This document shows positions 2,783-23,549 of a stretch of DNA of 23,549 nt, piece after piece. The translations under genes were made by a program, and so were the position numbers. Numbering within the stretch: position 1 is the stretch's first letter; each line of letters begins with the position of its first letter. The notes beneath the pieces are model-generated. The model was not told where the DNA came from. It saw only the letters and a list, made by a program, of their open reading frames with translations, and searched no databases. The stretch is taken from the IMG/VR virus record IMGVR_UViG_3300007640_000247, positions 1-23,549 of that record, one strand, 5' to 3'. This stretch comes from a virus.

Positions 2783-2807
2783 AAAAAGAGCGCCCTTCGG
2801 GGCGCTC
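2783..2807 (-). terminator. Terminator between convergent genes (strong for the minus strand)
   Basis: GAGCGCCC (2788-2795) and GGGCGCTC (2800-2807) form an 8-bp stem with a TTCG loop. On the minus strand it is followed by five T (complement of A 2783-2787), so it best terminates the minus-strand gene, whose stop codon touches the stem. On the + strand only ACTTCTTT follows, so it may stop + transcripts weakly. Confidence 0.75.
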
Positions 2808-3723
2808 ACTTCTTTGGCTCAAACGGTTGACTCGGGTCTCGCCCTGACGACCAGACTTTGGGCTTTTGTTCTTCAGTGGGTTCTTCCAACGGCTCCGCAG
2901 CTTCATCCTCAACCTCTGTAACGGGAGCCTCTGTAGCTTCATCCCCAGCTTCCGCAGGCGGCGGTTCAAGCGGTTGATCTAATTCGGGGATACCAAAATA
3001 ATCAGGATCACCTGGCTCGATCGGCGATAGTAACGATTCGGGGTCTGAGGGGTCAGAGTCATCTCCGTCCGTTTTGGGGAACAAGTCGCTCAGGCGAATA
3101 TCGAGGGGGTAATCATCAATATTTGCGGTCAACTTCGCAATTGACTTGATGTCACTCGCTGCCATCCCAAGCCGACCATCATGGGGCCACCCATTAAGAA
3201 ACATCTTCCCCTTGAAACCGTGCGCTCTAGCGTAGTCCCCAAGGTATTTGCCTAATCTATATCCAGGTCCAATCTGCACATGATCAAACGTTGTCTCAAA
3301 CAATACTTCAACAAATTTAACCCTCTCAGGTCGACCGTAGGCGCCCGTTTTTCTGAATATTGTTTTTTCTGACGAAATAGTGACAAGGCTCGCTAAGTTG
3401 CTATTTAAGACCTTGTCGATCAAGTCCTCGATACTAAATTTAGTCAGCTCTGCTGTGGCCAACCACCAAACCAGGTGCACGACGATCTCAGCTTCGTCTT
3501 TAGCCTGCTGCGCATCCAGGAGTTGCCGGTTCTTCTTTTCCAGCTCCTCACGCTCAGCATCGAATGTTTTGTCTACCGACTCCCGAAGAGCCTTGTATTG
3601 CTCGTAGGACAAACCGGACCCGATTTTGGAGGGGGATGTGGCGTCGCGCGCGCGCTGTTCAAGCGCCTGCCATTCTTCGTCAGCTACCTTTTTTAGAGCC
3701 CACCACTCAGGACTTTTTTTCAT
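2806..3723 (-). CDS. Unknown minus-strand accessory protein (moron)
   Basis: A 305-residue protein that I do not recognise. Residues 1-80 are charged and helical, probably a coiled coil (EREELEKKNRQLLDAQQAKDEAE). Residues 80-205 look globular with mixed alpha/beta content (IVVHLVWWLATAEL, VKFVEVLFETTF, KGKMFLNGWPHDGRLG). Residues 218-286 form a disordered tail rich in Pro and Asp/Glu with no Lys or Arg. There is no signal peptide or clear membrane helix. The start ATG (3723-3721 on +) has GCGGGGA just upstream. It is the only gene on this strand in the window, its middle part is visibly AT-richer than its neighbours, and it is enclosed by terminators. This is the classic layout of a moron carried between head and tail genes. 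Such genes often alter the host or exclude other phages, but nothing here shows which function applies. Confidence 0.8.
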   Translation of the reverse strand: MKKSPEWWALKKVADEEWQALEQRARDATSPSKIGSGLSYEQYKALRESVDKTFDAEREELEKKNRQLLDAQQAKDEAEIVVHLVWWLATAELTKFSIEDLIDKVLNSNLASLVTISSEKTIFRKTGAYGRPERVKFVEVLFETTFDHVQIGPGYRLGKYLGDYARAHGFKGKMFLNGWPHDGRLGMAASDIKSIAKLTANIDDYPLDIRLSDLFPKTDGDDSDPSDPESLLSPIEPGDPDYFGIPELDQPLEPPPAEAGDEATEAPVTEVEDEAAEPLEEPTEEQKPKVWSSGRDPSQPFEPKK

Positions 3724-3861: not shown

Positions 3862-4284
3862 ATGCCGAAACGACCTGCAATTGAAGGTGTTGAATTTTCT
3901 GACGACCAACCTGTGGTCGAGACCGTGGCCGAGTCCACTGACTTTCGTTCCATGGCAGCCAACGAAGCTTTCATGAACGAGTTGGTCACGATACTGATTC
4001 ACAGCTCCACCGACGAAAACCAGCCCCCTCAGGTCTTGGTTAACGTAAACGGCACCAACCAGCCAATCATCCGTGGCTACCCGACCAAGATCAAACGCAA
4101 GTACGTCGAGGTGCTGGCTCGGATGAAAGAGACCCGCTACAACCAAGTCACCCGTAACCCTAGCGCCCCTGACCAAGTCGACATGGTGGCGCGCCATGGA
4201 TTGGTGTACCCCTTTGACTTGGTCGAAGACCCCAATCCCAAAGGGCGGGGGTGGCTGAACAACGTGCTGGCTGAGGCTGCATGA
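3862..4284 (+). CDS. Hypothetical protein at the head of the tail operon
   Basis: A 140-residue soluble protein, starting MPKRPAIEGVEF. I chose ATG 3862 rather than the in-frame GTG at 3856 because the Shine-Dalgarno GAGGTG (3853-3858) lies directly before it. The middle (MNELVTILIHSSTDENQPPQ, LVNVNGTNQPIIRGYP) is followed by a basic helix KIKRKYVEVLARMKETRY. The gene overlaps the adaptor gene by 4 bases (ATGA), so the two are translationally coupled. Proteins of this look, encoded just before the adaptor, occur in many podophages and are usually called structural. I infer a role in the head-tail junction but no catalytic motif is visible. Confidence 0.75.
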   Translation: MPKRPAIEGVEFSDDQPVVETVAESTDFRSMAANEAFMNELVTILIHSSTDENQPPQVLVNVNGTNQPIIRGYPTKIKRKYVEVLARMKETRYNQVTRNPSAPDQVDMVARHGLVYPFDLVEDPNPKGRGWLNNVLAEAA

Positions 4285-4961
4285 CCTTCATTGAACTGGT
4301 CAACCGGCTACGCGTGGAATGCGGCGTATCCGGCCCTGCGCTATCGACCGCTCAAAACCTAACGGGTGAGAGCGCTCGCATGGCCAACTGGATTAACGCG
4401 GCCTGGACTGATATTCAGACCAGCCGCGACGATTGGCAGTGGCTGCGCGCGGAGTCGACGTTTAACACCACGGCGCAGCAGCAGTTCTACACGGCCACTG
4501 AGGCGGGTATCGGCTCGACCTTTGCCAACTGGAAGCGCGATAGCTTTCGCTGCAGCACGGTCGGCGAGAACTACGCCGATGAGCAAATCATTAATTTCCT
4601 TGACTACGCCGAATTTAGAAACCTGTACATGTACGGCAATCAGCGCACGACCTACACCCGCCCGGTGATCGTGACGGTTGCCCCCGACAAAAAGGTCGGG
4701 CTCGGCAGCACCCCTGACAAAGCCTACGTAATCGGCTTTGAGTACTACCAAAAGCCAGTGACCCTATCTGCCGATGCCGATGAGCCGGCGCTACCGACTA
4801 ACTTCCACCTAATCATCGTCTACCGAGCGATGATGTACTACGGGGGTTACGAGGCGGCCAGCGAGGTTTACCAGCGCGGCGAGGCCGAGTACCAACGCCT
4901 GTACCAGCGGCTGTTGGTTGATCAAATGCCGCCCATCACCACTGGGCCGCCGCTAGCATGA
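4281..4961 (+). CDS. Head-tail adaptor protein (tail tubular A-like, DUF6682-type)
   Basis: A 226-residue protein expected to bind below the portal as a dodecameric ring and to receive the tail nozzle. Diagnostic stretches are the N-terminal helix FIELVNRLRVECGVSG, then ARMANWINAAWTDIQTSRDDW ending in WL, KRDSFR near 85, YLEF-like EFRNLYMYGNQR, and the C-terminal YRAMMYYGGYEAASEVYQRG. This order matches the phage adaptor family I know as DUF6682. Length is normal. The ATG lies in a 4-base overlap with the previous stop, and the gene again overlaps the next gene by 4 bases, so the three genes form one coupled unit. Confidence 0.8.
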   Translation: MTFIELVNRLRVECGVSGPALSTAQNLTGESARMANWINAAWTDIQTSRDDWQWLRAESTFNTTAQQQFYTATEAGIGSTFANWKRDSFRCSTVGENYADEQIINFLDYAEFRNLYMYGNQRTTYTRPVIVTVAPDKKVGLGSTPDKAYVIGFEYYQKPVTLSADADEPALPTNFHLIIVYRAMMYYGGYEAASEVYQRGEAEYQRLYQRLLVDQMPPITTGPPLA

Positions 4962-14073: not shown

Positions 14074-15075
14074 ATGGCCGTCGACAACAACCCATTCGAC
14101 ATCACGACCCCAACGGTCAGAAACCCGACCCTTGACGAGTCATACAAAACCAACGCCACAACCGCAACGCCCACGGTCCCTGCGGCATCCGGCACCTTCG
14201 CGAAGGCGAGCACGCCTGATACGGTCACTTCCACCGGGTACGACGCAACGACCTACAGCACCACAGACTGGAGTGACACCACAGACCAATCGGTCGCCAA
14301 CCAGCTTCAGGGGCTAATTGCGCAAAACAGCCCGCTGATGCAACAGTCAAAGACCAATGCCCTGCAGGACATGAACAAGCGGGGCTTGCTCAACAGCTCG
14401 ATGGCAATCGGCGCTGGTCAAAACGCCGTTATTGCCAACGCGCTCCCGATTGCGCAAGCCGACGCCAAAACCCGAGCGGCGCAAGCTGAATTCAACGCCA
14501 CTGCAGCAAATACTGCATCAGCGAACAACGCCTTAGCCCAAAATACCGCCGCCCAGTTCAGCGCCTCCCAGCAAAACGAGGCTGATCAGTTCAACGCTCG
14601 TCTGGCAGCCGAGACCGACCAGTTCAACGTGGGTCAGGAGAGCACGGGGATTGAAGCCAATACGCGGCGCGAGCAAGAAGCGGCGTTAGCGGAGTTCAAC
14701 ATCCAGAGCGACTTGGTGAAACAGCAGCTCGTTAACTCGTTCGATGCAGCCAAAACCAACGCGGATGCCGAGACTCGGATCGCCCTACAAAACATCGATG
14801 CCCTGACCCGAGTGGAACTGGGCCAGATCGAGTCTGACTTCAAGCAACTTATGCAGACGTCAGCCTCCGCGTCAGAGCTCTTCGCCCAGGCGCTCAAAAA
14901 CATCAACGACCTTGTCATGAATCCTGACCTGAGTACCGAAGCACTCAACAACGGCATCACCACCCAAATCCAAAACTTGCAAGGTGGTATGGCGATCCTT
15001 GACGCGCTCAACGAAAACGTCGAAGGGCTCAAAGACATCATCGCCCCCGCCGAAGAGGAAGAGGCAACAGCCTAA
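14074..15075 (+). CDS. Probable internal virion (ejection) protein, Gln/Asn-rich helical
   Basis: A 333-residue protein with a Thr-rich extended N-terminus (residues 1-75) and then long helices rich in Ala, Gln and Asn. Around 161-190 the unit QF-x9 repeats every 11 residues (QFSASQQNEAD, QFNARLAAETD, QFNVGQEST), a hendecad rod pattern. Further AEFN units flank it. The acidic C-terminus (APAEEEEATA) ends the protein. There is no membrane segment. Position after lysis and before several similar helical proteins fits the internal core or ejection proteins of podophages, but I cannot match it to T7 gp14 or gp15. GGAGG at 14060-14064 precedes ATG 14074. Confidence 0.65.
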   Translation: MAVDNNPFDITTPTVRNPTLDESYKTNATTATPTVPAASGTFAKASTPDTVTSTGYDATTYSTTDWSDTTDQSVANQLQGLIAQNSPLMQQSKTNALQDMNKRGLLNSSMAIGAGQNAVIANALPIAQADAKTRAAQAEFNATAANTASANNALAQNTAAQFSASQQNEADQFNARLAAETDQFNVGQESTGIEANTRREQEAALAEFNIQSDLVKQQLVNSFDAAKTNADAETRIALQNIDALTRVELGQIESDFKQLMQTSASASELFAQALKNINDLVMNPDLSTEALNNGITTQIQNLQGGMAILDALNENVEGLKDIIAPAEEEEATA

Positions 15076-15078
15076 GCG

Positions 15079-15456
15079 ATGCGTGAGCAGTGGCTACAGC
15101 CGGTCATCGATGCGGTGCCCGGGGCCACGGCCGTGGACTTTGCTGACTGGGAGGTCATCCCGGGTTTCTTGGATGGCAAACACGTTTGCAGCGCGGTAAT
15201 GCGCGGCAGCGAAATTCACTTTGCCGTTGTCTCCGGCTGCCGCCCGATCCTTAAGGGCCGCACACAGGATTTCTTGCAGCCCCTTTTTGACCGCAAGGGG
15301 TTTCTTACCACCCGGGTTCCTTTGAGTGCTCGCGCCGAACGCCGCTTTGTTGAGCGGCTGGGCTTTGAGCGCACATGGAGCGACCACCTGTTTGACTACT
15401 TTTTCTTGGGCGACCTGCCCTTTTCGAGGACTAAACATGCGACCAGCTTTATCTAA
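15079..15456 (+). CDS. GNAT-like acetyltransferase-fold protein, possible internal virion protein
   Basis: A 125-residue protein. The middle strand EIHFAVVSGCRPILKGRTQDFLQPLF and the C-terminal LSARAERRFVERLGFERTW resemble the end of the GNAT fold, where a helix is followed by LGF. The acetyl-CoA-binding P-loop (Q/R-x-x-G-x-G/A) is not obvious, so it may be an inactive relative. In T7-like phages a small GNAT-like protein (gp13 type) is made in the same position and is needed for the internal core; that is the likeliest role. It starts 3 bases after the previous stop and its last 20 bases overlap the next gene. Confidence 0.6.
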   Translation: MREQWLQPVIDAVPGATAVDFADWEVIPGFLDGKHVCSAVMRGSEIHFAVVSGCRPILKGRTQDFLQPLFDRKGFLTTRVPLSARAERRFVERLGFERTWSDHLFDYFFLGDLPFSRTKHATSFI

Positions 15457-16324
15457 CCGCGCTGTACACAAGCACTACCTGTCGCTGGCGGATACCCGAA
15501 CGCTGGCCACCATGGGACCAATCGGTGATCCGACTGGCGGGCCAGCCTATGGAGAGCGAAACGCCCCAGCCGCTGCCGTGATTCTGGGCGGCGCCCAGAT
15601 GTACGGTGCGTATGCCGCCGCCGGGTCATTCGCTGCAATGTCCGTAGCACAAGGGTTGGTCTTTGCCGGTGGCGCCATGCAAGCCGTCGGCGGTCTGACC
15701 GGCAACTCAGATTTGATGAAGCTTGGCGCGGTCAGCTCGCTGGCGGGCGGAATCGGTGGCTATCTGTCTGACCCAGGCAGTGGCTTTAACACCAAGGTTG
15801 CTGAGGTGTTCAGTGACGCGCCAGCCGCCCCCGCGACAACCACACCATTTGCTCAGGGCACAAACGCTTCAATGACCACACCACCGGCGAACCTGTCCCA
15901 GTCTCAACTCTCGCCCTTGGCGACCGGGTCGGTGAACCCAGCACAACCGGTTGTGCCGGTCACCGCTCCGCCACCACCAGCAGTGGCACCGGCCGCAGCG
16001 CCCGCAGCGGCTGGGGCGCAAAGCCCCGGGCTGATCGGCCAGTTCACCAGCTACGCCAAAGAAAACCCGATGGCGGCCATGATGATGTCTCAGGCCGCAG
16101 CCGGTGGCCTAGAGGCCGCTGGGAATATTTTGAGCGGTAAATCTGCGGCTGAGGCCGACGCACTCGAAGCCGACACGGACTACAAGCGCGCACTGGCGGA
16201 GAAGGCGCGGGCCGACGCACAGCTTGAAGTGCAGCGGCGTGCCAACCTCAACAACAACCTGAGCAGGTACACGCAGCCGTACAAGCTCAACCCGAACGCC
16301 GTCTTAATCCAAAACCAAGCCTGA
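15437..16324 (+). CDS. Probable internal virion protein with Gly/Ala-rich hydrophobic segment
   Basis: A 295-residue protein. Residues about 45-100 are rich in Gly and Ala and weakly hydrophobic (VILGGAQMYGAYAAAG, GLVFAGGAMQAVGGLTG), like the glycine-zipper parts of ejection proteins that insert in membranes. A Pro/Ala/Val linker follows around 165-200, then a charged helix (KSAAEADALEADTDYKRALAEKARADAQ, shown here only by its composition of Ala, Asp and Glu) and a Tyr/Asn-rich end (YTQPYKLNPN). I took ATG 15437 because GAGG (15426-15429) lies 7 bases before it; the frame is open upstream but lies inside the previous gene. A T7 gp14-like membrane role is inferred from composition and position only. 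Confidence 0.65.
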   Translation: MRPALSNRAVHKHYLSLADTRTLATMGPIGDPTGGPAYGERNAPAAAVILGGAQMYGAYAAAGSFAAMSVAQGLVFAGGAMQAVGGLTGNSDLMKLGAVSSLAGGIGGYLSDPGSGFNTKVAEVFSDAPAAPATTTPFAQGTNASMTTPPANLSQSQLSPLATGSVNPAQPVVPVTAPPPPAVAPAAAPAAAGAQSPGLIGQFTSYAKENPMAAMMMSQAAAGGLEAAGNILSGKSAAEADALEADTDYKRALAEKARADAQLEVQRRANLNNNLSRYTQPYKLNPNAVLIQNQA

Positions 16325-16331
16325 GGTCCAC

Positions 16332-16784
16332 ATGGCACTACTTAATGACCAAATGCCCATCACCCCCGAGTCAGTCGCCGAGGGGATTGAAGTACCCGCA
16401 GATGTGAAAGAAGCCTACGACCGGGTCGTGCTCGCTGGCATGAAACTCATGTTTGGCGATAAGACCCACCAAATGGCTCTGAGCCAACTCAAGGGCGAAG
16501 GACCGCTGTCCGTTCGACTAGGCCGCGCCATTGCCAACATGGTCGTGACCTTTTTTAACGAGTCAAACAACACCATCCCGCCCAGCGTGTTGATCCCCGC
16601 CGGCACCTACCTGATTGCGCAAGCCGCTGACTTCCTGCGCCAAGCGCAAATGGATGAGGTCAGCAACAAAGCCATTGCCGATGCGATGCAGGTGATGGTG
16701 GAAGAAGTGGTGCGCAAAGTCGGCGGCAACACCCAAAAGATGTACCAACTGCTAAACCAGTACGGAGCACCCCGCAATGGCTAA
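16332..16784 (+). CDS. Helical virion-associated protein, unknown
   Basis: A 150-residue soluble, mostly helical protein with no membrane segment. Visible features are an acidic N-terminus (ITPESVAEGIEVPADVKEAY), a moderately hydrophobic helix (GRAIANMVVTFFNESNN), and a long C-terminal helix (ADAMQVMVEEVVRKVGGNTQ). GAGG (16323-16326) overlaps the previous stop and precedes ATG 16332. Its last 8 bases overlap the next gene. Lying between two probable internal virion proteins, it is likely a virion component or an assembly factor. I do not recognise a family. Confidence 0.65.
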   Translation: MALLNDQMPITPESVAEGIEVPADVKEAYDRVVLAGMKLMFGDKTHQMALSQLKGEGPLSVRLGRAIANMVVTFFNESNNTIPPSVLIPAGTYLIAQAADFLRQAQMDEVSNKAIADAMQVMVEEVVRKVGGNTQKMYQLLNQYGAPRNG

Positions 16785-17664
16785 CTCGCTCGGACTCATT
16801 GGCGCTGCAATAGCCAAAACCCTACAGGGTGGCGCTCAGGCAGCGTCCGAAGCAAGCAAAGGGCTTTATGAAAAAAAGCTCAAAGTGGACTTGGCTGCTG
16901 AGCTGGCCAAGATCGACGAGGCAAAACAAAACCGCTTAGCCGACGCTGCGGTCGACCGCGACATAAACGCGGTTCCACGGAGAGCACTAGCGCGCCTTGG
17001 TGCAGCCCCCACGGTCGGTGCGGCTGTTGCAGCAGAAGAAGAGCCAGCAGCTTTGGCGAGAGCGGCGCGCGAGAAGACGGGATACCAAGAACGCGCCGCG
17101 TTTGACCTAACGCAAATCCCACTCAAGGAAGCCGCCACCACACAGGCCACGATCACCCGGATCAATACGCCGGGGTATTTGGAAGGGCTTGAGCGGGAAA
17201 ATGCGGCTAAGCAGTCTCCAACGGCAAAGCTTGAGTTCAACAGCAAATCCGCCATTGAAGCGCTTAAGACTGAACTATCCAACACGACGGACGCCGCGAC
17301 ACGGCAGCAGCTTCAGCGCAAGATTCGCGATCTCTCGGGCAAGTCCACCCTGTCTGCAACCGAGGCGGCGACGCTGGCTAAAACCTATGGCTCGGTTGCT
17401 CAATCGCTGCTGCGTCAGGCGCAGACATTACGCAACTCTGGCATGGAAGAAGACGCAGCAAAAGCCAAGGAGCTGGAAGAGCAGGCTCAGGCATTCCTCA
17501 GTCAATTTCAAGCTCTGGAGCAGCAACTGGGTCTGGGTTCGTCACAACCGCCCCGAAGCAGAGCGCCTAACCCGGGAGGCGGCAGCCCCAACCCACCGAG
17601 TGGCGGCGCTACTCCCCGACCCAGTGCCGCTGACTTTGCAACACGCTCTAACCCGAATCGCTAA
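16777..17664 (+). CDS. Coiled-coil internal virion protein, unknown family
   Basis: A 295-residue helical protein. The N-terminus MANSLGLIGAAIAKTLQGGA is a small Gly/Ala amphipathic segment, followed by a Lys/Glu helix (KKLKVDLAAELAKIDEAKQN). Most of residues 85-255 is predicted coiled coil (RQQLQRKIRDLSGKSTL, AKAKELEEQAQAFLSQFQAL). The C-terminus is a disordered Pro/Gly/Ser/Asn tail (RAPNPGGGSPNPPSGGATP). GGAG at 16764-16767 precedes ATG 16777. It is followed without a single base of gap by the giant gene (TAAATG), so the two are translated from one message. A role as an ejection-apparatus subunit is inferred. Confidence 0.65.
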   Translation: MANSLGLIGAAIAKTLQGGAQAASEASKGLYEKKLKVDLAAELAKIDEAKQNRLADAAVDRDINAVPRRALARLGAAPTVGAAVAAEEEPAALARAAREKTGYQERAAFDLTQIPLKEAATTQATITRINTPGYLEGLERENAAKQSPTAKLEFNSKSAIEALKTELSNTTDAATRQQLQRKIRDLSGKSTLSATEAATLAKTYGSVAQSLLRQAQTLRNSGMEEDAAKAKELEEQAQAFLSQFQALEQQLGLGSSQPPRSRAPNPGGGSPNPPSGGATPRPSAADFATRSNPNR

Positions 17665-20600
17665 ATGAAATACGACCTTGCTGGTGCGCTTGCCGCTGGT
17701 GTGAGCAAGCGAGATATTGCCGACTATTTAGCTGGTAACGCTTACTACGACCTGGACGGCGCCCGCGCTGCTGGGGTTTCGGACGACGACATCATTGCGT
17801 TCCTGATGAAGCCCGAAGAGCCCAGCTTGATGGACCGGGCAAAGCAAGGGGTTGCCGATACCGCTACAGCCGGGAAACTGACGTTTAGCCAAGACCCAGC
17901 AGAAGTCGCACGTATCGTGGCAGAGGCTGAGCGTAATAGCTTGCCTCTTACCGACACCCAGAGGCGAATGGCCGCGGAGATCGCACCTTACCAGCAGCAG
18001 TACCAAGCAACCAAGTCAAAGCTACCCGAGGACAACGTACCGGGTTCGTGGAGCCCCGTCTCATCTCAGGAAGAAATCGCTCACGTACTTTCTGGCGCTT
18101 CACTGCTTGCCAAACGTATCAGTCAGTTCATCGAAAACCCAAATGAAGCCGCCGGCCTGGTCGTACAAAATCTTCCGAACTCGGCGCCCGGGATGGTCGG
18201 CACAGTCGCCGGTGGACTGATTGGCGGGCGACTTGCGGGCTTACCTGGCGCGGCTGGTGGCTCTATTCTGGGCGGATGGGGCGGCGGGACTGTAGTTGAG
18301 GCCGGTGCTGCGCTTCGCGATCAAATTGTTAAAGAGGCTCAAACGCGAGGTATTGACCCGAGAAACGCTGAAGCATTAACGCCGCTGGTACAAGAAAAAT
18401 GGGGTGAGTTTGTAAAACGCGCTCGCCTCAAGGCATTGGGAACCGCTGGAACCGACGCCGTTTTGAATACGTTGACACTTGGAGTTGCAGGTGCTGGTGA
18501 ACGCTTCATTGCCAAACAATTTGATGATTTAACTAAAGCAACCCAAGCCGGACGCATCGCACCCGATTCTGCGAAAAAAGCTCTCGACACGCTCAACGAT
18601 CAGGTTAAAGGATCGCGGTCAATTAAAGGGCGTTTAAAGCGAGGAGCCGGCGTGGTCGTCGCCGAGCCATTTGGCGAAGGCGTCAGTGAGGCTGCGGGTC
18701 AGCAGTTGGCATACGGCGAAATCGACCCGCTCGACGTCATCGACGAAGCTATCTTGGGTCTTGGGCAAGGTGTGGCCATGGCATCAGGCCGAGGTGCACT
18801 GACCCGACTGGCTGGTGTCAGCGATGTCCAACGCACCGACCAGGCGATGTCCGCTGCACGCGAGGCGCTTAAATCAGCGACATCCGCCGGAGAGGCAGTG
18901 GCCGCAGCCGACACCATGGCTGGGAGCCTCGATGACATCTTGGCGACGACGGTCCAGAGTGATTTAACTCCAGCCGTCACCGCTACGTTGCAGCCAACAC
19001 CACCGCGCTCTGCCCCTGCTCCAGTGGCTGCTGCAGCCCCGGAACCCCAAGCCGAGCTGCCGACCCTGCAGCCGGTGCGCCCCACTCTTGCCCAGCAACA
19101 GCGCGCCGTTGATCTCGATGTCCAGGCGGGCATGCAACCCACCGCCTTTGATACAAGCAATCTCCAAGCTCAGGCGCAAGTGGCTCGGGGTGAACCTCTA
19201 CAGCCGGCTGGTTATATTGATCTCAAGCCAATGGGCGAACGAGAGGCGAATCAGCGGGCTGCGGTCATTCGCGATCAAACAGCAATTGCTGGGGGCAACG
19301 CGTTGGCCATCGCGGTTGTACCCCACCCCACCACCGCTGGGTCGTTTGCCATTGGGCTGCGAGAACTCCCCGACCTGCGGATTGAACCCCCCGAGGTCAC
19401 CCCAGCCCAAGCGCAGCAGCGCATCGAAGCTGCTGCACTGACCGGCCAAATCGCTGAGCGGCAAGCCGAAGATGCCCCACGTCAGATCATCGTTGACCAG
19501 GCACTGCGTCGGGTCGAAGCCCGAGGCGGTGTAGCAAGCCCTGCAGAGGCTGCCATATTCGCCGAAGCTGGGGTCGGTACTCCATATGACCGGGTCGACC
19601 CAACCTTAGCGCCCCCGCTCACGACAGATCAACGACTCACTCAAGCGACTGGCATCTCGCTCGATCCACCTGCGCGCTTATCCAACACTGGCGAGTCAAC
19701 TCGCGTTGGGCGACTCGAAGCCGCAAACACCCAAGCGCAAGCTGAATATCAAGCACAACGGGCTGGCACCATGGCCCAAGCAGACCGCCTCGTTGCCGAG
19801 ACTGCAGCCGCCAGCACCATTAACCAAGCCCCAGCCCTTGCCGATGTGGTGCAAGTGCTGCGTATTCCCGGGGCGCAGCGCACCAGTGCGCAGGTCCGAG
19901 CTGTCCAGCGCGCACGGGCGCGCCTCTCCCCCGAAGATTTCGCGCTGGCTGAGCGTGCAGCCACGATGCCGGCTGGTCTGACCAAGGCTGAGCGTGATCG
20001 CATCGGCGGCTCAATCCCCACGGTGCAAATGTCAACGACCCGCAGTGACGGGGGTACGGTTGACTTAAACGGCGTGGCGCACGACTACCGCATCGTCTCC
20101 CCCCGCACCGGCATGTCGCAGCTCATCAATCAGCTCGCGCGGCTTTTCGGCAAAGAGGTGGTCTATTTCCAAACCGCCACACTACCCGCCGACGGGTTTG
20201 TGATGCCTGAGAACAATCGGCAGGTATTCATCAACGCCGACTCGGCCATGTCGCCGTTGGCGGTTTTCGGCCATGAGCTGCTGCACTTGCTCAAGCGCGA
20301 CAACCCGGTGGCTTACCAAGCCATCGAGGCGGTGGTGATGCGGCGTATGTCCGAAGGGACCATGGAGGCATTCCGCCGGGACTACGGCGAGACCGCCAAC
20401 ATTGAGGAGTTGAGTGCCGACCTGATGGGCAACGCCTTCTCTGACCCGACCTTCCTGGCCGATGTGTTCAACGAGATCGCGGCCATGGCGCCGACCGAGG
20501 CGCAGAGCATCATCGCCCGCTTGGCTGCTGCGATCCAAAAAGCGATTCGCGCCGCCCGCGCCATCATCGATCGGATGCCACCAGCCGCTCGCGGCTTTCA

Positions 20601-23549
20601 AGCCGACACGCTAGTGCAGAACTTGGAAGAGATACGGGCTGCCCTGCGCAGCGCATTGGTCGACTACGCCAATCAGCAGCAACTCCCAGCACGGCAGCTT
20701 GAGGCAGCGCGGGCGCGTGCCGAGGCGCAGGTTTCCTTGGACGCTGGGACGCGAGCAGCGCCCGAAGCGCAGCCAGTTACCGCCTCCAACAGGCGCCCTG
20801 ACACGTGGAAAGCCACGCCCGAAGACCGGCGCTTGGCGGAAGAGTATTTCGAGATCAACGGTATCTATCCGTACCTGAGCGAAGGCAACCGCGAGGTCAA
20901 GGTCGAAGGTGCGAGCTTCAGCGTCAAACGCGTTGGCAAATACGGTGACCACCCGGTGCTGGGTATCCCAGTCAATAAGAACGGAACGGTTACGGTGTAC
21001 TACCCCACCACGGCTGCCGACGCACGTCGCATTGCCCGCGATAAGACGCTAGCCGCCGCTGACGACAACAACCGAATCTATGTGACCAACGAATCGGCTG
21101 GATGGCGAGCCATGGAGGAGATGGGCAACATCCCCCAAGATACCGACGGCTCGGTGATCGCGCTACAAGTCAACCCAGACGACCTGCAAATCGACCGGGA
21201 GTACCCCGACGGTCGCAAAGACTTCTTCATCCCCACCAAAGAGGGTCAGTACTTTGACCAAAAGATGTCACGGCTTTGGGCGTTGCGTGCATCACGCCGC
21301 CAAGCCATCGATGAGGCTGTAACCAACCGGGTGCTAAAAGACCGCGTCGCTCAGACGCTGGCCGAGTACCTGGCCATGACACCCAAAGAGCAGCGTGCCG
21401 CCAGCTCGGCCGCCAAGCAACGTCTCGAAGAGCAGCACAACGTCACCACGCTGTTGGGTGAGAACGGCAAGCTGGAGAAGACTCGGGTCAACGATCTCGG
21501 GCTGACGTACGACGGCAACCCTGTGGCTAGCCTTGGGCTGGGCATGGCCTCAGCGCAGAAGATCAACAACCGCCTCTCGACCTGCCCCAATAGCGCGGCG
21601 TGCGAGGGGTTGTGCCTGGGCGATACCGCTGGACAAAACCGTCTATACGGTGGTGCGGCCACCCAGTCGGTTGCCGGCCGCTACGAGAAGCAAGACTTCC
21701 GGGCTGGCCCCCGCCTATCTCAGTACCTAAAAACCGAGGCATTTGTTGCCAGCACCGGTGAATTGACGATCCGGCTGCACGAAGAGATCAACCGCTTTGA
21801 AGAATGGTGCGAGGCGAACGGGTACCAGCCGGCAATCCGCCTCAACGTCACCAGCGACATCAGCCCAGACATCTGGCAGCCGCTTATCGAGGCGCACCCC
21901 AACGTCTATTTCTACGACTACACCAAGCTCAACAGCAAGCCGGTAGCCCCCAACCACCACCTTACCTACAGCTCGACTGGGGCATCCCAGATCATCGACG
22001 GCAAACTATTGGTCAACCCGCAGAGTAACTGGGACAAGATGGTGCGCAAACTCCAGGCCGGGTCCAACGTGGCCATGGCCTTCACCGACCGCAAGTCGAT
22101 GCCCAAATTCGTGGTGGACGCCAAGACCGGCGAGCAGTTTGAGGTGTGGGACGGCGATAACTACGACGCCCGTTTCCTCGACCCTGTCCGCGAGGATGGC
22201 CGTGGGCTAATCATCGGCCTCACGAATAAAGACAAAACCGGGCGTACCGAAGACGCCGCGGTCAGGAACGACGGGTTTTTCATTGATTACGTTCCAAAAC
22301 GTGACGGCGACACCGTCACCATTCCCGATCAGTCGCAGATCGGGGGTCGGCAAACGATCCCCATCGCTGCGTCAACCCGTCGCCCTGAATTCACCAGTGC
22401 CCTTACGAGTGGGCTTACTGCGGCAAAAACCAACAGCGCACCGGCATCGGCTTGGAAGCAGGTCATCAAGGGCATGGTCAACAAAGGGGCGGTCAAGGCT
22501 GAAGAGGTTGAGTGGTCGTCGATTAATGACTTCCTCGACCTGCAGCAAGGCAAGGTCACCAAACAAGAGCTGCTGGACTACGTTGCCAAGAACGGCGTCA
22601 AGGTCTATGTGACCGTGCTCGGGGATTCCGGACTCGACTTAGTCGGCGACCTTTATGTTGACCAAGTCCGTGATGGTGAATGGGCTATCTTCGATCAGCG
22701 CGATGAGCCAATTGGAGGCACATACGACAGCTTTTGGGCCGCGCAGGATGGGGCGGACGATATGGCTGCGAGCGACCCCACCCGGTACTCTAGCTACACC
22801 CTACCCGGCGGGAAGAACTACCGGGAGACGCTTCTCACCCTTCCCGAGGGCGAAGACATGCGGCGTGTCGACGGGATGATTTGGCGAATCAGCGACGACC
22901 TCGCCGACGATATTCTGGTTGACCTTTCAGCGGCCGGATTGGATCGATACGACTACGGTAGGGTTGAGACCACTGGCGGCGCTGCCAATATTGAGTTTAA
23001 AAATTTACCGGTGCAGGTGTGGGAGACCGTCCAACGGATTGGTCGTAGCTATGACCTCACCAGCGTCCACGTCCGAAAGCTCAAAGAGACTGGCACGAAC
23101 AACGATAAGGATGTTCGCTCACCCCACTGGGACCAAAGCAACGTCATCGCCCACATCCGCACGACCGAGCGAACTCAAGAAGATGGCGACGCCAAGATTC
23201 TGTTTGTTGAAGAACTCCAAAGCGACTGGGCGCAGAACGCGCGAAAGCGTGGTTTCAAAGACCAAATTGGTGGCCGGGTATTTAAGTCGGAAGAAGGCAT
23301 CACGCTGGACGTAGACCCTGACTCACCAATCAACCCCACCGACTCGACAACCTCGTTTGAATTTGAGCCAGACGATCCGTGGGCAGTGGAGTGGGCAGAT
23401 GGCACGTATTCCTACGGATTCACCAGCGAAGCTGAGGCTGAGCTTGCTGTGCGTAACCGTCAAGCAAATGCGGCCGAGCGTGGGCCATTCATCGGGACCA
23501 CGGACGCGTGGCTAAATTTGGCGCTCAAGCAAGTCATTAAGCAAGCGGT
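17665..23549 (+). CDS. Giant multi-domain polyvalent protein (3' end outside window)
   Basis: One open frame of 1,961 full codons with no stop, continuing past the edge. ATG 17665 abuts the previous TAA and has no clear Shine-Dalgarno, implying reinitiation. Visible parts: tandem 25-residue repeat (3-47); Gly-rich membrane-prone segment (173-215); Pro/Ala linker (about 440-475); Gln/Ala-rich helices; metallopeptidase-like domain with HELLH at 870-874 and IEELSAD at 913-919, the latter supplying the likely third zinc ligand (gluzincin pattern); possible ADP-ribosyltransferase-like segment (1105-1198); three-cysteine domain starting CPNSAACEGLC at 1307-1317 and including FYDYTK; LPD-like helix block (about 1603-1655); and FVEELQSDW at 1847-1855 opening another LPD-type domain that runs off the edge. 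This matches the phage 'polyvalent proteins' delivered with DNA. It may also serve as the large ejection protein. No function is proven. Confidence 0.88.
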   Translation, partial: MKYDLAGALAAGVSKRDIADYLAGNAYYDLDGARAAGVSDDDIIAFLMKPEEPSLMDRAKQGVADTATAGKLTFSQDPAEVARIVAEAERNSLPLTDTQRRMAAEIAPYQQQYQATKSKLPEDNVPGSWSPVSSQEEIAHVLSGASLLAKRISQFIENPNEAAGLVVQNLPNSAPGMVGTVAGGLIGGRLAGLPGAAGGSILGGWGGGTVVEAGAALRDQIVKEAQTRGIDPRNAEALTPLVQEKWGEFVKRARLKALGTAGTDAVLNTLTLGVAGAGERFIAKQFDDLTKATQAGRIAPDSAKKALDTLNDQVKGSRSIKGRLKRGAGVVVAEPFGEGVSEAAGQQLAYGEIDPLDVIDEAILGLGQGVAMASGRGALTRLAGVSDVQRTDQAMSAAREALKSATSAGEAVAAADTMAGSLDDILATTVQSDLTPAVTATLQPTPPRSAPAPVAAAAPEPQAELPTLQPVRPTLAQQQRAVDLDVQAGMQPTAFDTSNLQAQAQVARGEPLQPAGYIDLKPMGEREANQRAAVIRDQTAIAGGNALAIAVVPHPTTAGSFAIGLRELPDLRIEPPEVTPAQAQQRIEAAALTGQIAERQAEDAPRQIIVDQALRRVEARGGVASPAEAAIFAEAGVGTPYDRVDPTLAPPLTTDQRLTQATGISLDPPARLSNTGESTRVGRLEAANTQAQAEYQAQRAGTMAQADRLVAETAAASTINQAPALADVVQVLRIPGAQRTSAQVRAVQRARARLSPEDFALAERAATMPAGLTKAERDRIGGSIPTVQMSTTRSDGGTVDLNGVAHDYRIVSPRTGMSQLINQLARLFGKEVVYFQTATLPADGFVMPENNRQVFINADSAMSPLAVFGHELLHLLKRDNPVAYQAIEAVVMRRMSEGTMEAFRRDYGETANIEELSADLMGNAFSDPTFLADVFNEIAAMAPTEAQSIIARLAAAIQKAIRAARAIIDRMPPAARGFQADTLVQNLEEIRAALRSALVDYANQQQLPARQLEAARARAEAQVSLDAGTRAAPEAQPVTASNRRPDTWKATPEDRRLAEEYFEINGIYPYLSEGNREVKVEGASFSVKRVGKYGDHPVLGIPVNKNGTVTVYYPTTAADARRIARDKTLAAADDNNRIYVTNESAGWRAMEEMGNIPQDTDGSVIALQVNPDDLQIDREYPDGRKDFFIPTKEGQYFDQKMSRLWALRASRRQAIDEAVTNRVLKDRVAQTLAEYLAMTPKEQRAASSAAKQRLEEQHNVTTLLGENGKLEKTRVNDLGLTYDGNPVASLGLGMASAQKINNRLSTCPNSAACEGLCLGDTAGQNRLYGGAATQSVAGRYEKQDFRAGPRLSQYLKTEAFVASTGELTIRLHEEINRFEEWCEANGYQPAIRLNVTSDISPDIWQPLIEAHPNVYFYDYTKLNSKPVAPNHHLTYSSTGASQIIDGKLLVNPQSNWDKMVRKLQAGSNVAMAFTDRKSMPKFVVDAKTGEQFEVWDGDNYDARFLDPVREDGRGLIIGLTNKDKTGRTEDAAVRNDGFFIDYVPKRDGDTVTIPDQSQIGGRQTIPIAASTRRPEFTSALTSGLTAAKTNSAPASAWKQVIKGMVNKGAVKAEEVEWSSINDFLDLQQGKVTKQELLDYVAKNGVKVYVTVLGDSGLDLVGDLYVDQVRDGEWAIFDQRDEPIGGTYDSFWAAQDGADDMAASDPTRYSSYTLPGGKNYRETLLTLPEGEDMRRVDGMIWRISDDLADDILVDLSAAGLDRYDYGRVETTGGAANIEFKNLPVQVWETVQRIGRSYDLTSVHVRKLKETGTNNDKDVRSPHWDQSNVIAHIRTTERTQEDGDAKILFVEELQSDWAQNARKRGFKDQIGGRVFKSEEGITLDVDPDSPINPTDSTTSFEFEPDDPWAVEWADGTYSYGFTSEAEAELAVRNRQANAAERGPFIGTTDAWLNLALKQVIKQA
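17671..17805 (+). repeat. Two tandem copies of a 25-residue helical unit at the giant protein N-terminus
   Basis: Residues 3-22 (YDLAGALAAGVSKRDIADYL) and 28-47 (YDLDGARAAGVSDDDIIAFL) align with 11-12 identities over 20 positions, offset 25 residues. The shared core YDL-x-GA-x-AAGVS-x3-I is a helix-turn-helix-like unit seen at the ends of many large phage internal proteins. It may be a virion-docking or packaging tag; that is inference. Confidence 0.75.

Follow-up and report, generated by a model that had tools for sequence, protein, structure and literature searches.

A shared GP88 core in giant phage proteins suggests a possible weapon that enters the cell with the DNA

Introduction

What is the giant protein whose open frame fills the right end of this virus record, and at which stage of infection does it act? 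An earlier note on this DNA read it as a polyvalent protein encoded in the ejection-gene cluster of a podophage. Polyvalent proteins that combine ARTs and LPDs with a metallopeptidase hub have been described before (Iyer et al. 2017, PMC5512222). Here we report that the protein also contains GP88 (PF17338), a family that is widespread in phages and for which we found no assigned function; a literature search for PF17338, with subscription journals mostly beyond its reach, returned no paper. GP88 and an ART-like domain that precedes it (referred to as X) form a core shared by the giant proteins of many phages and, as judged from sequence comparison, this shared core suggests a weapon that may be delivered together with the DNA.

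Results

The giant open frame

The window, by which we mean the whole stretch of DNA that was analysed, makes up one whole virus record, a single contig of 23,549 bases. The frame at 17665-23547 (+) has 1,961 codons without a stop and is interrupted by the 3′ end of the contig. The longest plus-strand open frame in 200 shuffled copies of the window was 331 codons, which bears out the previous description of a protein of more than 1,960 codons. In the related contig L185 the orthologue is complete and 2,748 aa long, and the visible frame is best explained as roughly the first two thirds of a late gene whose product is a giant polyvalent protein. No sequence with the absent 3′ part of the gene was found when it was searched for. 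The ATG at 17665 follows the TAA of the preceding gene (17662-17664) with zero gap, so the TAAATG junction described earlier is genuine, but in L185 a few bases separate the orthologue from the preceding gene, and TAAATG is thus nothing special.

The motifs that had been named in the protein were all present and occurred once each: HELLH (aa 870-874, at 20272), EELSAD (aa 914-919, at 20404), the cysteine cluster CPNSAACEGLC (aa 1307-1317, at 21583) and FVEELQSDW (aa 1847-1855, at 23203). Judging from the conservation of HExxH, EE and the Cys residues among relatives, they are not due to chance. The proposed membrane-prone segments, on the other hand, were not recovered. No 19-residue segment in the visible part was TM-like (maximum hydropathy 1.35); in the complete orthologue a single segment, close to the C terminus, was. 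Sequence searches of Pfam, PHROG, NCBIfam and the PDB with the whole protein returned nothing beyond GP88. Exact peptide patterns for the whole protein or the peptidase region found no close relatives, and a scan of cellular genomes found no prophage relatives of the giant.

Gene neighbourhood

The giant gene stands in a virion-gene setting that is marked by capsid, adaptor and fibre genes and by a syntenic upstream cluster. The major capsid protein (Phage_capsid_4; 1046-2104, +), which marks the structural cluster, is 87% identical to that of L185, and the gene at 4281-4961 (+) encodes an SU10-type head-tail adaptor, consistent with a podophage. This identity also fits the presence of a holin and an endolysin and the absence of a recognised tape-measure gene, as far as gene content can tell. 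A 305-aa frame on the opposite strand (2806-3723, −) lies within the structural cluster and has no Pfam match.

The L185 contig (54.8 kb) matches the capsid, adaptor, fibre and other structural genes of the window, and the five small genes upstream of its giant match those of the window in the same order. In the window these genes, all on the plus strand, lie at 14074-15075 (E 2e-81), 15079-15456 (125 aa; E 7e-39), 15326-16324 (E 4e-44), 16332-16784 (150 aa; E 5e-49) and, immediately upstream of the giant, 16777-17664 (295 aa; E 2.5e-14). The third of them probably starts at 15437 or later, because its listed GTG falls within the preceding gene. The giant of L185 is 51% identical to that of the window over aa 781-1568 and 42% identical in an N-terminal region (18592-19662, +; aa 310-666), and residues 1-309 have no match in it.

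A gene shortly upstream of the giant matched PHROG 4287 ("DNA ejection protein") in four other relatives (L195, L193, L175 and L017). A PHROG search with the small upstream genes of the window itself gave no informative match to any family, the ejection PHROG included, and the label of an ejection cluster for the window therefore rests on these relatives and on the synteny with L185. On that basis, the earlier placement of the giant in an ejection-type cluster holds. At several loci the giant closes a rightward gene block and is followed by leftward genes. A separate arrangement was seen in L096 (2-8987), where the capsid module is related to that of the window and a giant with the LPDe domain (see below) lies upstream of the capsid gene, not downstream.

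A metallopeptidase-like domain

The peptidase-like segment suggested before was recovered as a conserved domain, a zincin-type metallopeptidase-like domain (MPT) at 20113-20676 (+; aa 817-1004) that contains HELLH (20272-20286) and EELSAD (20404-20421). Across 32 aligned relatives HExxH did not vary, and the EE of EExxAD hardly did. The zincin-like MPTase of polyvalent proteins has been defined by HExxH with a downstream Glu and by an N-terminal helix, three strands and two C-terminal helices (PMC5512222). Both the motifs and the AlphaFold2 model of MPT (pLDDT 81) agree with this definition: a helix (38-48) is followed by three strands (52-58, 65-68 and 71-78), the HExxH helix (85-100) and, further on, the Glu helix (134-145). 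Foldseek comparison of the model with the PDB gave no peptidase and just weak, mostly helix-rich matches. This outcome is probably due to the dominance of the long helices in the model. A few relatives gave weak profile matches to Peptidase_M48, M13 and BSP.

A peptidase encoded in a late structural cluster could also act during assembly. The giant would then not be ejected; MPT would process virion proteins, and the remaining domains would be assembly factors. DdrB of P1 is indeed cut before packaging (PMC5512222). However, the ART-PolyVal, ParB-like and GP88 domains of this family are poorly explained as assembly factors, GP88 is elsewhere an early gene, and the neighbours of the giant are of the ejection type in the four relatives mentioned above. 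We regard this explanation as very unlikely.

An ART-like domain and GP88

The possible ART-like segment proposed previously corresponds to a second conserved domain, X (20794-21324, +; aa 1044-1220), which is predicted to have an ART-like fold. In a Foldseek search of the PDB, the match of best probability was the Agrobacterium 6b protein (3aq2), which we take to be an ART-fold protein; the match covered about 100 columns with a probability of 0.96 but an E-value of 0.13. In an alignment of 29 members, the Tyr of strand 2 and the Asp were nearly invariant, and both are kept in the window. The position of the catalytic His in strand 1 was occupied by His in 10 members and by Pro in 18. The window is among the latter (YYPTT at 20998), and its X thus lacks the strand-1 His of the H-Y-D clade. 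X is probably an ART-derived domain and, because the His position is occupied by Pro, catalysis has probably been lost in the protein of the window.

Downstream of X lies GP88 (PF17338, PHROG 1617; 21442-22299, +; aa 1260-1545), which was detected by Pfam as a complete domain with E 4.2e-18 and a profile score of 66.5 bits against a curated cut-off of 24.4. The note had reported a three-cysteine segment in this region. The segment is real, but its identity as a named family, and as the most constant part of the giant family, had been missed. The three Cys (21583-21615) were invariant in 90 of 90 sequences, and other invariant GP88 positions are also kept in the window, including RLNVTSD (21838), FYDYTK (21910) and HHLTYS (21955). 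The conservation of RLN-TSD and FYDYTK is partly a matter of ascertainment because both peptides, unlike the Cys residues, served as scan patterns.

An AlphaFold2 model of X-GP88 built with 90 aligned sequences reached pLDDT 87 and pTM 0.82. In the GP88 part of the model, the Cys loop lies between strand 1 and the first long helix, and the strands after this helix carry RLN, FYDYTK, HLTYS and VAMAF. This predicted order of elements resembles that of radical-SAM barrels. Foldseek returned TIM-barrel matches for GP88, weak ones only, and among the Pfam families other than GP88 itself there was no meaningful match. A profile comparison with DUF5131, a cysteine-rich phage family, was not significant (P 0.05), and its best local alignment paired the expected motifs. 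The CX3CX2C motif of radical SAM enzymes is absent from GP88 of the window, where the spacing is CX5CX3C. Non-canonical cysteine spacings occur elsewhere in the radical SAM superfamily.

The Pro at the catalytic position of X, found in 18 of the 29 members, raises the question of whether the enzyme-like domains are decayed passengers, inactive on the host, in a protein whose role is chiefly structural, in ejection or in the internal core. The gp16-like position of the gene, beside genes that match a DNA ejection family in four relatives, would suit such a protein. Decayed domains, however, would not retain the conservation observed here: X-GP88 is the best conserved part of the giant, in which other phages are 51-56% identical to the window, the three Cys and further polar residues of GP88 are invariant, and so is HExxH. 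We therefore consider decay improbable.

Architecture of the family

To describe the family, viral contigs were scanned with the GP88 alignment, which yielded stand-alone copies, mid-sized fusions (for example ART with GP88 in L020 and L023) as well as complete giants, 2,529-3,453 aa long. A further scan with the X segment, between the peptidase and GP88, yielded 49 loci, and architectures were read with profiles built from these scan alignments. About 41 distinct phage proteins of up to ~3,700 aa share the X-GP88 core. GP88 followed 35-68 residues downstream of X in 53 of 55 X-bearing frames; one of the two exceptions runs off its contig and the other is a partial X match only. Of the 41 length-distinct cores, 34 have MPT before X, 31 include ART, and 27 are closed by LPD38. 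The cassettes that follow the core are swappable and comprise ART-PolyVal, ParB-like and LPDe domains. Pfam detected GP88 together with ART-PolyVal in L014, L016 and L021, and LPD38 in L016 and L021. With these Pfam-recognised relatives, and with MPT, X, GP88 and LPDe encoded by a single frame, the reading of the protein as a polyvalent-type giant is upheld.

LPDe (22384-23547, +; aa 1574-1961; truncated by the contig end) accounts for the LPD-type segment reported earlier. It is an unnamed conserved domain, common to many giant phage proteins, and carries PGGxNYRE and FVEELQSDW (23203-23229). No Pfam family matched LPDe in the giant of the window or in the other LPDe-bearing proteins scanned. 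The suggestion that this combination and order of domains may be undescribed does not hold as worded, given two other contigs: L200 has the order MPT-X-GP88-LPDe-ART-LPD38, and L195 has the same order with a ParB-like domain before LPDe. The arrangement is rare but not unique. Directly after GP88, L185 carries ART-PolyVal and the window carries LPDe, indicating that cassettes are exchanged at this point between otherwise syntenic phages.

Two further observations concern LPDe. In L029 (2894-8915) and L170 (3421-8259), GP88-bearing and LPDe-bearing proteins are encoded by adjoining genes, as if the protein of the window had fused two genes that are otherwise adjacent. In L105, L103, L119 and L158, the open frames that contain LPDe exceed 4,100 codons.

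Stand-alone GP88

In phage records, stand-alone GP88 is a protein of ~245 aa. In seven linear T7-like or Pelagibacter phage records the gene lies within the first 2.6 kb, in the early region, and it can occupy the extreme left end (505-1239 in L005, 1734-2552 in L006 and 800-1528 in L011). The left end of these genomes is the region that enters the cell first. GP88 thus occurs in two settings: in giants from ejection-type clusters it is the fixed core, next to a constant ART-like partner, and in T7-like phages it is encoded by an early gene that enters first. For these reasons it probably acts at the very start of infection.

The neighbours of some stand-alone copies hint at a nucleic-acid-related role. 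In Caulobacter phage Sansa (L009, 60-3699) the GP88 gene comes right after two methyltransferase genes, and in HTVC134P it lies near DNA methylase genes. GP88 might accordingly modify nucleic acid rather than a host protein, in DNA protection or anti-restriction or on tRNA or other RNA, and the injected giant would shield the incoming genome. The EELQSDW-bearing giant of L097, which has helicase and methylase-like segments, and the ParB-like domain of some cores would fit this explanation. Few neighbourhoods were examined, however; most stand-alone GP88 genes sit among unnamed early genes, and the X-GP88 module showed no signature of nucleic-acid binding. We consider a nucleic-acid target possible but doubtful.

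Discussion

We think it fairly probable that the giant is a late-made polyvalent protein that is packaged and ejected with X-GP88 as its payload. In the course of events that we infer, the giant would be synthesised late alongside the virion proteins, enter the particle together with the ejection proteins and reach the cell along with the phage DNA. MPT may cut the chain before or after delivery, releasing its parts. The constant pair X-GP88 would be the main enzymatic payload, in which GP88 is a predicted barrel-type enzyme whose three invariant Cys may coordinate a metal or an Fe-S centre, much as radical SAM proteins do. Within minutes of the start of infection it would modify its target, either a host molecule or the DNA that is coming in. 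In T7-like phages the same need would be served by an early GP88 gene that enters first. The domains that follow GP88 may be exchangeable effectors acting on varying targets, and LPD38, at the C terminus, probably has a role in packaging or ejection.

A broader and more speculative proposal is that many phages inject pre-made GP88, as a radical-SAM-like or other Fe-S enzyme, with an ART-derived partner at the core of a self-cleaving giant, and that T7-like phages express the same enzyme early, so that one host-takeover reaction is reached by two routes. We put this forward tentatively. For testing the role of GP88 at the start of infection, X-GP88 offers a defined, expressible module of ~520 residues.

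Comparison with known systems

The assignment of the gene to the position of T7 gp16 stands in part. The giant shares with T7 gp16 and P22-type ejection proteins a late position beside ejection-type genes (in relatives), but the resemblance is positional only: the visible frame has neither a transglycosylase domain nor a sequence relationship to gp16, and in L175 the transglycosylase is a separate gene immediately before the giant.

Like the GP88 family in general (PF17338, PHROG 1617), the copy in the window has all three Cys, RLN-TSD, FYDYTK, H-LT-S and DGD-D-R. Unlike the stand-alone protein, an early gene product in T7-like phages, it is fused into a giant of the virion cluster and has an N-terminal extension (HNV..LLGENGKLEKTR...) and X as a partner. 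The same X-GP88 fold is found in UniProt/BFVD entries from uncultured Caudovirales phage (such as A0A6J5RS77 and A0A6J5SA55), with 45% identity over 561 columns for the best of them. Such entries are named just "uncharacterized" or "Gene product 88 domain-containing protein" and give no function or architecture.

The closest parallel is with the published polyvalent proteins (PMC5512222), which likewise join disparate domains in one chain, with a zincin-type metallopeptidase hub, ART domains and a late virion-gene setting, and with a C-terminal LPD38 that is found in relatives of the giant described here. A search of the main text of that paper turned up neither Gp88 nor radical SAM, and the constant core of the present family differs in being X-GP88. 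Polyvalent proteins thereby gain a new type of core: as far as the aligned sequences indicate, what is new is a polyvalent family in which an ART-like domain and GP88 are fixed and the cassettes are exchangeable.
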